Made by a program: the position numbers and the translations under genes. The notes beneath the pieces were generated by a model. It had not been told where the DNA came from, did no database searches, and saw only the letters and a program-made list of their open reading frames with translations. DNA of 12,751 bases from assembly GCA_023132135.1 (NCBI GenBank), contig JAGLYR010000014.1:1-12751 (forward strand). Direction: 5' to 3'. The DNA is from Candidatus Eiseniibacteriota bacterium. GTDB taxonomy: Bacteria > Arandabacterota > Arandabacteria > JAGLYR01. Positions 2,922 to 11,567 of the stretch are shown here, in pieces; position 1 is the first letter of the stretch; each line of letters opens with the position of its first letter.

Positions 2922-3275
2922 CTACAAGTCAGAGCGAAACCCGATCCTGGGCGGCGGTTTCTTGGGCGGGGCCATGAGCTCGCGGATTGCGTCAAACACC
3001 ACCCTGAACTGGGCATCGTACCGCTTCTCGAGCTCAGCGAGCTTCCGGGCGAGGTTCGCGTTCGAGGCAACCATCCGGCGAAGCCGGACGAACGCCCGGA
3101 TGATCTCGACGTTGACCTGGACTGCGCGCGTGCTTCGCAGCACGCTCGACAGCATCGCCACACCCTGTTCGGTGAAGACCCTTGGGAGCTTGCGGATCCC
3201 TCCCCAGCTTGATGTTCCAGATTGGAACTTCAAGTTGTCGAACTCGTCCTTCGTGAGCCGAAACATGAAGTCGCC
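2922..3275 (-). pseudogene. ORF6N-domain protein, N-terminally truncated fragment (copy 2)
   Basis: The readable product begins at an internal methionine (ATG at 3266) and reads [13 protein letters not shown], then [15 protein letters not shown]. It continues past the shared block into a natural family C-terminus: AFVRLRRMVASNANLARKLA, a coiled-coil-like EKRYDAQFRVVFDAIRELM, and a proline-rich end with RIGFR. The stop at 2922 is therefore probably authentic. The first 50 or so residues of the family are missing: upstream of 3275 the frame stays open but no longer matches ORF6N sequence. The start has no good Shine-Dalgarno, so expression is doubtful. Copy 2 carries the C-terminal half that copy 1 lacks, and copy 1 carries N-terminal sequence that copy 2 lacks. 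Confidence 0.75.
3096..3275. repeat. 180-bp direct repeat, right copy (ORF6N core)
   Basis: This is the partner of 230-409, same orientation, 179 of 180 positions identical by my alignment. Left of 3096 it continues into genuine ORF6N C-terminal coding sequence. Right of 3275 it changes to the promoter region of the MATE gene. Confidence 0.9.
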
Positions 3276-5723: not shown

Positions 5724-6176
5724 TCAGAGAGGGAACAACGCGGCCAGGAACTCCCGCACAAGCTCGGCGACGGTATGATCGTCATAGTGCCTGACGGTGA
5801 TGAAGGGTGAGGTGTTCCCGTAGATAAGGGCGGAGAGGATCTTGCCTTTGAGGGATTCGTGCCGAAGACACAGGACAGGCTTGGCGCAGTGGAGAGCTTC
5901 TGAGATCTCGTAGCCGACGCCGAAGGACGGGGTCGAGACCTCGGCGATCATGGCAACGGACCCGGCGATCCAGTCGAGGTCGCGGCGGAAGATGTGGCGG
6001 TGCTTCTCGAGGGTAAGGTTTGCGAGATCATCGGCAGGGTCGAGGACGGGTTTGGAGAGGACTTCGAAGCCTGCCGCCTCTATCGCATCGCCGATCAGAC
6101 GGAGATGTGAGGCAAACTCGCGGCCGGCGGACATCGAGCCGGCCAAGTATACTCCATGAACGCGATCAGGAGGCAT
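5724..6176 (-). CDS. DNPH1/Rcl-like nucleoside (nucleotide) 2-deoxyribosyltransferase family enzyme
   Basis: The 150-aa protein has the family fold markers in order: VYLAGSMSAGRE at residues 9-20 (nucleotide-binding loop, compare IYFCGSIRGGR in Rcl), D66/D68 before the second core strand, and AEVSTPSFGVGYEISEA at 78-94. In that last motif E90 corresponds to the catalytic glutamate nucleophile. The length fits DNPH1 (about 145-175 aa). Family members cleave or exchange the N-glycosidic bond of deoxynucleosides or deoxynucleoside 5'-monophosphates. The GS..AGRE loop favours the DNPH1-like monophosphate hydrolase side, but I cannot settle this. The cytoplasmic enzyme would act in nucleotide salvage or sanitation. 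Its start codon abuts leader repeat A, and there is no conventional SD apart from the GGAC at -12. Confidence 0.82.
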   Translation of the reverse strand: MPPDRVHGVYLAGSMSAGREFASHLRLIGDAIEAAGFEVLSKPVLDPADDLANLTLEKHRHIFRRDLDWIAGSVAMIAEVSTPSFGVGYEISEALHCAKPVLCLRHESLKGKILSALIYGNTSPFITVRHYDDHTVAELVREFLAALFPL

Positions 6177-6236
6177 AAGAACAAGTCCGTAGTGCGTAGT
6201 CCCTAGTCCAAGGAGAAGGGCATCATACCCTCACCC
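6177..6236 (-). repeat. Leader repeat A (heptad-containing) directly upstream of the DNPH1-like gene
   Basis: Read on the minus strand this is a GGGTGAGGGTATGATG block, CCCTTCTCCT, four 7-bp units of the form NGGACTA (one diverged), and GGACTTGTTCTTATG. The last ATG is the start codon. The 36 bp at 6201-6236 match 9205-9240 with a single mismatch. Related copies precede uppP and the TPR gene. Confidence 0.8.
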
Positions 6237-6244
6237 CCTCGCCT

Positions 6245-7072
6245 CTACATCACCTGAAGCAGCACCAGCCCCCCACACCCAATCGCCCAACAGTAATAGC
6301 TATACCTGTGTAGCATCCCTTTCCTAATGTGCTTCATTATGAGCCAGACAGCCAGGCAGCCGCTGATGTACGCCGCCAGGAACCCGAGGATAGCGGGGCC
6401 AACAGGTAGATCGCCCATGCCGGTCTCCCCGGGCCTGAGGAAACTAACCAGACCGGCTCCCAGGACGACGGGGATCAGCAGCAGGAAGGAGAACTCGGCG
6501 GCAAGCTTGGGATTGAGTCCCCGGGCAAGTCCCATCGTGATCGTCATCCCCGACCGCGAGATCCCGGGAAACACAGCCACAGCCTGGGCCAGCCCCACCA
6601 ACGTGCCCGATGCGAAGCCGAGCGGCCTCTCCGACACCGGGCGGATCCGCGACAGCTGCAGAACGACGCCGGTCACAAGCAGAAACATCAGAGCCATTCG
6701 CGGATCCGAGAACACCCGGTCAAGATGTTCCCCCAAAAGGAGACCCGCAACCGCGCCCGGCACAGTTCCCCACACAATCAGAGCGACGAGACGGAAAGAC
6801 TCCTGCTCCCATGCCGCCCCCCACCCCACGCGCCGCCCCAGAGCCTGGAAAAGGAGACGGATCCCCGGGACAATCCGGTCCCGCAGCGTTCCCCGGATCA
6901 TCGTGAGGACGGAACACACCGTGGCCAGGTGGACCAGAACCTCGAGACTGGCCCCCGACGTCTCGACGCCGAAGATGGCCTTGGCGATCACGAGGTGGCC
7001 GGAGCTGGAGACCGGCAGGAACTCGGTCAGGCCCTGGATCAGGCCGAGGATCAGTGCGTCGAGATAGGTCAT
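6245..7072 (-). CDS. uppP: Undecaprenyl-diphosphatase (bacitracin-resistance type)
   Basis: The 275-aa polytopic membrane protein carries both UppP/BacA signatures: QGLTEFLPVSSSGHLVI at residues 13-29 (E17 and H26 equivalent to the catalytic Glu and His) and FPGISRSGMTITMGL at 168-182 (R173, phosphate-binding arginine). It dephosphorylates undecaprenyl diphosphate to recycle the C55 lipid carrier for peptidoglycan and surface glycans, with the active site facing the periplasm. Length and about eight membrane helices are normal for the family. It lies 125 bp downstream of the UbiA gene on the same strand, so the two polyprenyl-lipid enzymes could share a transcript. A hairpin-forming repeat and leader repeat B lie between them. 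Confidence 0.96.
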   Translation of the reverse strand: MTYLDALILGLIQGLTEFLPVSSSGHLVIAKAIFGVETSGASLEVLVHLATVCSVLTMIRGTLRDRIVPGIRLLFQALGRRVGWGAAWEQESFRLVALIVWGTVPGAVAGLLLGEHLDRVFSDPRMALMFLLVTGVVLQLSRIRPVSERPLGFASGTLVGLAQAVAVFPGISRSGMTITMGLARGLNPKLAAEFSFLLLIPVVLGAGLVSFLRPGETGMGDLPVGPAILGFLAAYISGCLAVWLIMKHIRKGMLHRYSYYCWAIGCGGLVLLQVM

Positions 7073-7130
7073 AGGAATAAGTCCGTAGTCCCTAGTCCAG
7101 AGTCCCTAGTCCAAGGAAAAGACATCAAGG
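7073..7130 (-). repeat. Leader repeat B directly upstream of uppP
   Basis: On the minus strand this is GATGTCTTTTCCT, five NGGACTA-type heptads, and GGACTTATTCCTATG, where the ATG is the uppP start. It lacks the GGGTGAGGGT part of copies A and C. The only Shine-Dalgarno-like sequence is the repeat's own GGA about 12 bases before the start. Confidence 0.8.
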
Positions 7131-7213
7131 GATTCCGGGGACACGATCCCGATTTCGCAGGCCCTCGGCGCCGTCCACGACTTCGCCCGAAATCGGGTCA
7201 TGTCCCCGGAATC
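7131..7213. repeat. Long imperfect inverted repeat overlapping the 3' end of the UbiA gene
   Basis: The left arm 7131-7157 (GATTCCGGGGACACGATCCC... to TTCG) and the right arm 7188-7213 are reverse complements apart from a small bulge, with a 30-bp loop. The UbiA stop codon (7198-7200) and its last residues lie inside the right arm. The ATTC.GG.GACAC core resembles 2656-2670 beside the RAYT relic, which suggests a REP-type element. As RNA it could stop transcription or protect the 3' end, but there is no U-tract. Confidence 0.7.
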
Positions 7214-8052
7214 CCGCTGCCGATCAGAATGCACACGATCCCGACAAGCATATCGATCTTCAACAGCCCGCTCAGCATACCCAGTCTTCTCTCCGAAGGT
7301 CCAGAGAGAATCGCTATCATGACATACACCAGGGGAAGGTCGACACCGATGATGACCATTACCAGGTAGATGGCGTTGTAGTATCCCAAGGCGAAGGGAA
7401 GGAGTGTGGCTCCAACGAGGACGCCAAACACAACCGCTGCAATGGCCAGCGCCTTCTCACTTCCGAGCTGAACGGCCAGGCTTCGAACACCAGCCTTGGC
7501 ATCCCCCCTCTCGTCCTGGACGTCCTTGATGATCTCTCTGCCCAGGTGAAAGAGGAAGGCCAGTACGGCGGGGATGAGACTCCGGAGAGGATCCAACCCC
7601 GCGAATCCCCCCAGAACAAACGCCGACGCGCTGACCCCACTGACCACCACGTTGCCCGCAAAGCCGGTTCTCTTGAGATGCGAACTGTAGAGCACCAGGA
7701 GCACAACCCAACACGTGACCAGCGCAAAACCGCCGTTCCCGACCCGGAAGCTCAGCACCCACCCAAGCAGAAACAGCAATCCGGCGAAAAGAACCGATCC
7801 ACCGGCTGTGACCTGCCCCGAAGGAATCGGCCGATTCCCTTTGCCGACCCGGTCGGTTTCCCGGTCGAAGAAGTCATTGATCGCATTGCCGCCCGCGGCA
7901 ATCAGGATGGCCGACGCAATGGCCGGACAGACGGTCTCAGCGGAAGCGCAGTGGCTGACCGCAGCACCGACGCCAACAGAGATTCCAGCGATCAGGAGAT
8001 TGGCCGGACGGGTCAGTCGCAGGTAGGACATGGTCGGTTGAGGACGGTTCAT
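7198..8052 (-). CDS. UbiA-family prenyltransferase, similar in motifs to DGGGP synthase
   Basis: The 284-aa polytopic membrane protein has the two Mg2+-diphosphate motifs of the UbiA superfamily: N59-D60-x2-D63-x3-D67 followed by GNRPIPSG, and D177-x2-D180-x3-D184 in GREIIKDVQDERGDAKAGVR. The spacing, the PIPSG and the GREIIKD wording are close to archaeal-type (S)-2,3-di-O-geranylgeranylglyceryl phosphate synthase, which adds a second prenyl chain to an ether lipid precursor. Related enzymes make menaquinone, hemes, chlorophylls or decaprenyl-phosphoribose, so the acceptor is uncertain. The ATG overlaps the TPR gene's stop (ATGA, 8049-8052) with AGGAAG upstream, implying translational coupling. 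The stop codon lies in an inverted repeat arm (GIPGT end), so the C-terminus may have been reshaped. Confidence 0.88.
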   Translation of the reverse strand: MNRPQPTMSYLRLTRPANLLIAGISVGVGAAVSHCASAETVCPAIASAILIAAGGNAINDFFDRETDRVGKGNRPIPSGQVTAGGSVLFAGLLFLLGWVLSFRVGNGGFALVTCWVVLLVLYSSHLKRTGFAGNVVVSGVSASAFVLGGFAGLDPLRSLIPAVLAFLFHLGREIIKDVQDERGDAKAGVRSLAVQLGSEKALAIAAVVFGVLVGATLLPFALGYYNAIYLVMVIIGVDLPLVYVMIAILSGPSERRLGMLSGLLKIDMLVGIVCILIGSGIPGT

Positions 8053-9167
8053 CGGGACTTCCTGAAGAGCTCCTCGCTTTTCCTGTACGCTTCCTTGGCC
8101 TGCCAGGTAAGTCCCTTCTTGTCGTAGACCACGCCCAGGAAATAGTAGCTTCTCCCGTCCGTCGGGTCGATAGCGATTGCCTTCTGCAGCTCACTGACGG
8201 CCTCGTCCACGGCGTCCATCTTGTTGTACGCGACTCCAAGATAGTAATGAGCCCTGGCGTCGTTGGGGTTGATTTCAAGAACCTGGTCCAGCTCCCGCAC
8301 CGCCTTCTCGTATCGCCCCCGTTTGACAAAGGCCAGTGCCAGGCGGTAGCGCGCCCGGACGTTCTTGGGATCCAGATCAATAGCCGAGCGGAATTCGCTG
8401 ATGGCCACTTCCACGTCTCCCTGTTCCATCTGCGCCATTCCCAGGTTGAAGTGGGCTTCCGCACTGGAGGAATCCACATCTATGGCCTTCCGGAACTGCT
8501 CGATGGCGTCCTTCTGCATGCCGGCATCGCCGTAGACAGCGCCCAGGTTGCAGTACCATTCAGCCGTATCGGGAGCAATTGCTATGGCCTTCCTGAACTC
8601 GATGATGGCCTTGTCGTACCAGCCCTTCCGGTCGTACGCGAAGCCGAGGTTGTTGTGCGCCTTCGCGTTTCCATGATCCAGATCGGCGCACCGTTCGAAC
8701 TCCGTGATCGCGTCGTCTGTGCGGTCGTTGTTGAGGTAGCTCACACCCAGGCGGTAGTGCGCTTCCGCATTCTCGGGGTCCAGCGCCGTGGCTTTCTGGA
8801 ATTCCTCTACGGCGCGATCCACCTCGTCTTCCAGCTCCAGCACTTCGCCCATGTGATACCGGGCCTCCACCATCCGCGGGCTGATCTCCAGCGCCTTGCC
8901 AAAACAGGTCTTCGCCCGTCCCAGCTGGTTGCACAGGATGTTGAGCCGCCCGCACACCACGTGCAGGTCTGCCCTGTCCTCGGCAAGCCTGAGCGCCTCT
9001 TCACACGTCGAGCGCGCCTCGTCAAGGAGGTTGTCCTTCTCGCAAGCTTCAGCCAGAGCCACGAGCGTATCCACATTCTTCGGGTCGGCCTTCGCCCGCT
9101 TCCTGAGCTCAGCAACCTCTTTGCCGGTAGCCGCCTTGCGTCTTGGAATCCTGGAGAATCTAATCAT
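8049..9167 (-). CDS. Tetratricopeptide-repeat (TPR) protein
   Basis: The 372-aa protein is almost entirely TPR: about ten consecutive 34-residue units with the W/L-G-Y/F-A-P pattern (AEAHYRLGVSYLNNDRTDDA, AKAHNNLGFAYDRKGWYDKA, ARAHYYLGVAYNKMDAVDEA and others), each ending A...P. The basic N-terminus (MIRFSRIPRRKAATG) has no signal peptide or membrane segment, so it should be cytoplasmic, perhaps membrane-associated through its basic end. TPR superhelices scaffold protein-protein contacts. The tight coupling to UbiA suggests an assembly role for a membrane lipid enzyme, but that is inference from position. It starts directly after leader repeat C. Confidence 0.92.
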   Translation of the reverse strand: MIRFSRIPRRKAATGKEVAELRKRAKADPKNVDTLVALAEACEKDNLLDEARSTCEEALRLAEDRADLHVVCGRLNILCNQLGRAKTCFGKALEISPRMVEARYHMGEVLELEDEVDRAVEEFQKATALDPENAEAHYRLGVSYLNNDRTDDAITEFERCADLDHGNAKAHNNLGFAYDRKGWYDKAIIEFRKAIAIAPDTAEWYCNLGAVYGDAGMQKDAIEQFRKAIDVDSSSAEAHFNLGMAQMEQGDVEVAISEFRSAIDLDPKNVRARYRLALAFVKRGRYEKAVRELDQVLEINPNDARAHYYLGVAYNKMDAVDEAVSELQKAIAIDPTDGRSYYFLGVVYDKKGLTWQAKEAYRKSEELFRKSR

Positions 9168-9240
9168 CAGAACAAGTCCCTAGTCCTCAGAAACAGTCCC
9201 TAGTCCCTAGTCCAAGGAAAAGGGCATCATACCCTCACCC
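9168..9240 (-). repeat. Leader repeat C directly upstream of the TPR gene
   Basis: On the minus strand this is GGGTGAGGGTATGATG, CCCTTTTCCT, three NGGACTA-type heptads, a TTTCTG insertion, two more heptads, and GGACTTGTTCTGATG, the final ATG being the TPR start. It is the longest copy and is nearly identical to copy A over 36 bp (9205-9240 against 6201-6236). Confidence 0.8.
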
Positions 9241-9242
9241 TA

Positions 9243-9263
9243 CCCTCTCCCAGAGGGAGAGGG
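9243..9263. repeat. REP-like hairpin between the slipin and TPR genes
   Basis: CCCTCTCCC (9243-9251), AGA, then GGGAGAGGG (9255-9263) is a perfect 9-bp stem with a 3-nt loop, preceded by CCCTCACCCTA. This wording is widespread as an intergenic repeat in many Gram-negative genomes. It lies beyond the 3' end of the minus-strand slipin gene and could end or stabilise that transcript, but no U-run follows. Confidence 0.65.
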
Positions 9264-9303
9264 AAAACACCGACCTTCTTACTCTGCGTATTCTGTGGCC
9301 AAG

Positions 9304-11512: not shown

Positions 11513-11567
11513 ATCTTTTCCTGATTCCCTATTTCCCATTTCCTATTTCCTACTTCCTACTTCCCGC
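11513..11567 (-). repeat. GGAAATA-type heptad array filling the HD-nfeD gap
   Basis: The entire 55-bp gap is, on the minus strand, six consecutive 7-bp units of the form GGAA(A/G)TA with small variations, then AGGAAAAG before the nfeD ATG. Every unit carries a GGA, so the transcript has a ladder of Shine-Dalgarno-like triplets seven bases apart. The sequence differs from leader repeats A-C, but the period and position (immediately before a start codon) are the same. Confidence 0.75.

Follow-up and report, generated by a model that had tools for sequence, protein, structure and literature searches.

The sequences lying directly before three genes in a 12,751 nucleotide (nt) stretch of DNA from a Candidatus Eiseniibacteriota bacterium (contig JAGLYR010000014.1 of assembly GCA_023132135.1; the whole stretch is called the window below) are probably copies of one lineage-specific, high-copy mosaic spacer repeat, which is placed at the edges of open reading frames (ORFs) and would have replaced the native leaders of these genes. 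The genes encode a DNPH1-like protein, UppP and a TPR-repeat protein, and in each case the repeat, composed of a head, an array of heptads and a short tail, directly touches the start codon.

Three copies of one element in the window

All coordinates are window positions, and the three copies of the element, named A, B and C, are all on the minus strand (Table 1). The spacers before the starts of the DNPH1-like gene, uppP and the TPR gene (ATG at 6176-6174, 7072-7070 and 9167-9165, respectively, minus strand) align end to end, the final 15 columns being mostly invariant, ATG included, and the gap between tail and ATG is 0 nt in all three. The copies end in GGACTTGTTCTT, GGACTTATTCCT and GGACTTGTTCTG, each followed directly by ATG, with the shared end pattern GGACTT-R-TTC-Y-N. 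Each is built of the head ATGCCCTTYTCCTT (ATGTCTTTTCCTT in B), the heptads, GGACTTRTTCYN and the start codon. Copy A has the heptads GGACTAG, GGACTAC, GCACTAC and GGACTTG, copy B has five, including one GGACTCT and with GGACTTA as the last, and copy C has three plus two separated by the degenerate tail GTTTCTGA; judged by its letters, copy C reads as two units of which the second would have lost its head. All three copies carry a CCTTYTCCTT block (in B as the variant TCTTTTCCTT), and copies A and C additionally share GGGTGAGGGTATG followed by ATGCCC (repeat D3; 46 nt, 93%). The initial annotation, which had reported the identical spacing to the start ATG, the heptad counts of 4, 5 and 5, the upstream block common to the three copies and the extra segment common to A and C, was therefore accurate on the structure of the element.

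The spacer from the stop of uppP to the start of the DNPH1-like gene, 68 nt long, is occupied entirely by copy A and the cut-short module GGCGAGGGGGTGAGGGTATG. This module occurs 15 times in the genome, in 14 cases immediately before an ATGCCC-like head. Copy B lies in the spacer between a UbiA gene and uppP. Copy C separates the TPR gene from a slipin/Band 7 gene, and the hairpin module before its head ends in GGGTGAGGGTATG.

A mosaic repeat family in intergenic spacers

The source assembly is fragmented (3.4 Mb in 345 contigs, the window being contig 46), and many copies of the repeat lie at contig ends. Analysis of the family was based on 88 stretches around motif matches, with reversed sequence as the control. 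The head block ATGCCCTTYTCC has 87 exact copies in the genome and the double heptad GGACTAGGGACTA has 60, against none in the control for either; the tail with its ATG (GGACTTNTTCNNATG) has 20 exact copies, or 52 against 8 in the control when up to one mismatch is allowed. The grammar of the family is a head ATGCCCTTYTCCTT, two to five GNACNNN heptads, which come in the two flavours GGACTAG and GCACGAA, and a tail ending in TTCYN. Distances from head to head peak at 33, 40, 47 and 54 nt, i.e., in 7-nt steps, and thus the units differ by whole heptads. Three types of hairpin module (CCCTCTCCCTCTGGGAGAGGGTAGGGTGAGGGTATG, GCCGCCCCCTCCGGGGGCTTCAACCCCTCC and GGGCGACCCACCGGGTCGCCCC) stand on the left of the chains; these accompanying modules are palindromic, unlike the heptad module. 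The tail runs into the head of another module, which begins ATGCCC, in 60 of the 107 arrays, so that in most copies the ATG behind the tail marks the junction of two modules and not a gene start.

None of the 89 chains lies inside a gene. The motif of tail plus ATG was found in three of 60 genomes, the source genome included, and in none of seven relatives from the same class. Fourteen matches to the junction of tail and head among the contigs of other genomes were scattered over unrelated genomes and are taken as chance. The family is a high-copy mosaic repeat, probably lineage-specific, whose copies fill gaps between genes.

Anchoring at the edges of open reading frames

Genes on the stretches were called with a home-made hexamer gene caller, which missed some starts (that of the DNPH1-like gene was put 42 nt downstream). 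The chains face start codons in 52 of 89 cases and the stop codon of a gene on the opposite strand in the other 37. A start codon falls exactly on the ATG at the tail (0 nt) in six of the 52 same-strand cases, where 0.3-1 would be expected (Poisson 2e-6 to 7e-4); these six flush starts are those at copies A, B and C and those on contigs C116, C153 and C327, with A, C116 and C153 using a start upstream of the one chosen by the gene caller. On the other side, the stop codons of converging genes concentrate at -23 to +12 nt from the tail end, and five opposite-strand ORFs enter the repeat and terminate at -16. The right end of the chain is closer to an ORF edge than the left end in 42 of 55 chains with two neighbours (p 1e-4), the median distances being 27.5 and 130 nt, respectively (Wilcoxon p 6e-5). 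Of 56 right ends, 24 are no more than 20 nt from an ORF edge, where uniform placement would give 10.5 (at most 19 in 5000 simulations). Since the start-codon and stop-codon cases are equally tight, the rule of placement is the ORF edge and not the start codon, and a particular end of the repeat is the one that is anchored. Between tandem genes, sense chains outnumber antisense chains by 28 to 11 (p 0.009).

The genome-wide scoring of distances to starts that the initial annotation proposed hence returned an exact phase beyond chance, but as part of an anchoring which includes stops. Its idea of a mobile repeat tolerated only at start codons comes close to the data as regards a repeat limited in place, and has to be widened to the opposite-strand stops.

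Translation and regulatory function

The exact phase to start codons had been read as a sign that the element supplies the ribosome site or is the target of a common regulator. An element of this kind, with array and tail substituting for the Shine-Dalgarno (SD) sequence or binding an RNA-binding protein (of the S1, Csp or CsrA type), would co-regulate unrelated genes, and the number of heptads would tune output. We consider it unlikely. The three leaders do lack a good SD, as stated initially: their duplex energies with the anti-SD sequence are -3.2, -3.6 and -4.5 kcal/mol, which is hardly better than for random ATGs (median -3.1), the median of other ATG genes being -6.3 kcal/mol. The flush genes as a group pair slightly better than random ATGs (p 0.047), which speaks for a role in translation, and more weakly than other genes (p 0.03). 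Such a role would also fit the approximately 12 genes that lack a good SD and whose starts are no more than about 8 nt from a heptad array, as well as the sense bias in tandem spacers, and a proposal of this kind has been made for the TAACTGA arrays that end 1 nt before starts (MacGregor, 2015; PMC4679880). Most copies, however, are away from start codons, with 60 of the 107 tails leading to another head and 37 of the 89 chains facing stops, and the tail sequence itself varies among the flush genes. No significant RNA fold of the heptad element was found (z -1.1 to -1.9), nor a match in Rfam or a sigma-70-like promoter site. A promoter or terminator was likewise rejected, there being no promoter-like site and a single weak terminator-like match, in copy C. 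Of the suggestion that heptad number tunes expression by slippage, the variation between copies in 7-nt steps is borne out, but nothing ties this number to expression.

Module junction or gene start

A second alternative is that the head, with its built-in ATG, provided the start codons of the downstream genes and here and there their first codons as well, so that the repeat itself would have brought the phase. As a general account of the leaders this exaptation is even less probable. The ATG is intact in 80 of 96 aligned heads, which is about the conservation of the remaining head positions. A micro-ORF, MPFSLD*, formed by the head and first heptad was considered and rejected, its substitutions having no synonymous bias; in codon 2 the second base is more variable than the third, and the head is thus not a conserved peptide. 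Two genes do begin within an intact head, one on C287 (L181), which starts MSFSL and looks by eye like a methyltransferase, and one on C189 (L146), which starts MPFSF and looks by eye like a secreted protein; in both the first residues are encoded by the repeat head, and these starts are an exaptation of it. A gene on C14 starts ATGCCC and the gene at copy A starts ATGCC, and the bases after the ATG of flush genes that do not start in a head resemble the head more than those of other genes (3.5 versus 2.3 of 9, p 0.01, n = 6). Against this, the gene at copy C, those on C116 and C345 and an Hdr gene have no similarity to the head. The start of uppP is the same codon as that of its relative in genome G002, which is preceded by AGGAG, and it therefore looks native; relatives have SDs. 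In the window the ATG after the tail is accordingly the gene's own start in the case of uppP, and likely so for the DNPH1-like and TPR genes; no orthologue of the DNPH1-like gene was found among the class relatives. On C116, C153 and C327 plausible gene starts stand directly after the tail, and these too may be the genes' own starts.

The account already disfavoured is that of chance and assembly, in which a repeat of high copy number that contains an ATG occasionally precedes an ORF and the arrays owe their form to short-read assembly: it is very improbable, for while the contigs are fragmented with many copies at their ends and gene starts came from a simple script, the offset is exact in six of 52 cases, the copies in the window are internal to their contig, and edge anchoring is seen again in an unrelated genome.

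Other features of the window

The inverted-repeat module upstream of copy B (arms GGGATTCCGGGGACA...) overlaps the end of the UbiA gene, including its stop codon and last codons, so that the last residues of the protein, GIPGT, are encoded by the repeat. The array between the HD-domain gene and NfeD, with units GGAAGTA, GGAAATA and GGGAATC, is the fourth heptad spacer of the window that runs from edge to edge; there are seven other GGAAATA arrays in the genome, mostly preceded by CCCACAGGAAATAG. An ORF6N-domain gene is represented by two near-identical stretches (74-487 and 2922-3266, minus strand) flanking a gene for a beta-helix protein.

Table 1. Repeat modules and adjoining genes in the window
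Feature	Position	Strand	Description
DNPH1-like gene	5724..6176	-	Nuc_deoxyrib_tr, PF05014
Copy A	6177..6223	-	head ATGCCCTTCTCCTT, four heptads, tail TTCTT; touches DNPH1-like ATG (sequence, alignment, repeats D1-D3)
Cut-short second module GGCGAGGGGGTGAGGGTATG	6224..6244	-	upstream of head A
uppP	6245..7072	-	BacA, PF02673
Copy B	7073..7125	-	head ATGTCTTTTCCTT, five heptads, tail TTCCT; touches uppP ATG
Inverted-repeat module	7129..7215	-	21-nt arms, 45 nt between; immediately upstream of copy B (repeat I2)
TPR-repeat protein gene	8049..9167	-	
Copy C	9168..9227	-	head ATGCCCTTTTCCTT, 3 + 2 heptads on either side of a degenerate internal tail, final tail TTCTG; touches TPR gene ATG
Hairpin module TTTTCCCTCTCCCTCTGGGAGAGGGTAGGGTGAGGGTATG	9228..9267	-	upstream of head C
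GGAAGTA/GGAAATA heptad array, differing in sequence	11513..11567	-	fills spacer from HD-domain gene stop to NfeD start

Comparison with other heptad arrays and repeats

The closest known systems are the TAACTGA heptads of Beggiatoaceae and the GGGNATC heptads of Xanthomonas and Nostoc. The former occur in marine Beggiatoaceae, some Cyanobacteria and Bacteroidetes and mostly end just before the starts of unrelated genes, a distance of 1 nt being the largest class and SDs being rare (MacGregor, 2015; PMC4679880). Like the arrays described here they are intergenic, of high copy, composed of 2-6 units and split by variant heptads, and their heptads close reading frames. Direct 7-nt repeats in many spacers are common to both, and so are downstream genes without an SD, as seen in the genes of the window and in the weaker anti-SD pairing of the flush group compared with other genes. 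The unit differs, being GNACNNN here (GGACTAG, GCACGAA), and the parts of that report consulted mention neither head and tail modules nor chaining with hairpins, both of which are present here. Direction differs too: 147 of 170 TAACTGA arrays point to start codons (Table 1 of PMC4679880), the majority ending just before a start and facing it, against the 52 of 89 chains and approximately 12 near-flush starts found here.

The GGGNATC heptads (Rehm, 2015; PMC4692102) have one end closest to the neighbouring ORF whatever its direction, often near or overlapping stops. They share with our family the many intergenic copies and the nearer end, but contain uninterrupted G-tracts and fold into G-quadruplexes in vitro. 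Four such tracts are not found in the present arrays, in which units such as GCACTAC, GGACTTG and GCACGAA occur and many GCACNNN heptads break the tracts; these arrays also carry a head and a tail. The BrickBuilt minisatellite and miniature inverted-repeat transposable element of Porphyromonas gingivalis (PMC4596501) is likewise species-specific, intergenic and built of leader, tandem repeats and tail, but it has a 23-nt unit and inverted-repeat ends and lies 49-591 nt from coding sequences, compared to 7-nt units and 0-nt junctions here. REP and BIME sequences with their RAYT transposases (PMC2817692, PMC3733652) are also short joined modules of high copy in spacers; the heptad module is by contrast non-palindromic, and no intact RAYT was found here.

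Edge anchoring recurs in G231, a genome which shares only the domain with the source. In it five unrelated genes have a GGGACTA array beginning 5 nt past their stop codon, about half of the 20 arrays that have neighbours on both sides start within -1 to +8 nt of a stop, and three to four further arrays overrun the stop codon; the paired test of left and right distances was not significant (p 0.10). As these arrays start some 5 nt past unrelated stop codons, the fixed phase belongs to the class of repeat. The premise of the initial annotation, that intergenic repeats do not keep a phase to unrelated starts, is thus wrong for heptad arrays, both for TAACTGA and for GGGACTA. In G231 (L296-L315), where arrays start 5-8 nt past stops, the flank RRGCA or GAACA often stands directly before the GGGACTA array; a similar AGAACA occurs in the tail of the window copies when this is read as its reverse complement (AGAACAAGTCC). 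It is conceivable, though doubtful, that a process which recognises ORF edges places the heptad arrays of unrelated phyla, with their beginning or end at a fixed distance from the starts or stops of unrelated genes; copying or insertion would then have to be linked to translation or to mRNA ends.

Origin of the leaders

A spreading spacer repeat with passive effects on expression, and not a dedicated translation switch, looks like the most economical account. The family would copy itself into intergenic spacers, probably non-autonomously, its arrays changing length by slippage of the GNACNNN heptads and being chained with hairpin modules. The tail end would come to rest at an ORF edge whichever the direction of the ORF, before starts on the same strand and around stops on the opposite strand. 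In the window the repeat would have displaced the native leaders of the three genes, which would then be read without an SD, via weak, coupled or leaderless initiation.

Several points limit this account or weigh against it. Machinery for mobility was not found, the only Y1 transposase match of the genome being a short broken fragment in an incomplete assembly. The nearest genomes compared are from the same class only. The sense bias in tandem pairs need not arise from a purely neutral spacer; it is the sole sign that the downstream gene is affected, and may reflect only the tolerance of selection. Finally, the exact 0-nt junction with ATG is not accounted for by a known insertion chemistry. 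The Y1_Tnp fragment lies at C145:6435-6716 (L217) and is interrupted by stops or frameshifts; spread driven by a RAYT is not supported by this single fragment from an incomplete assembly. Neither is a target-site duplication of NATG supported: ATG is present at both ends, the base before it differs between the two, and at the right end ATG itself is often missing.

Significance

To our knowledge, heptad arrays are widespread in bacterial spacers without an agreed origin. The exact phase to the start codon, formerly taken for a translation signal, is matched by one at stop codons and is seen again in an unrelated lineage, and the question therefore becomes how the arrays find gene edges. In this bacterium, genes appear to have lost their Shine-Dalgarno sequence to a spreading repeat, and some first codons are derived from it.

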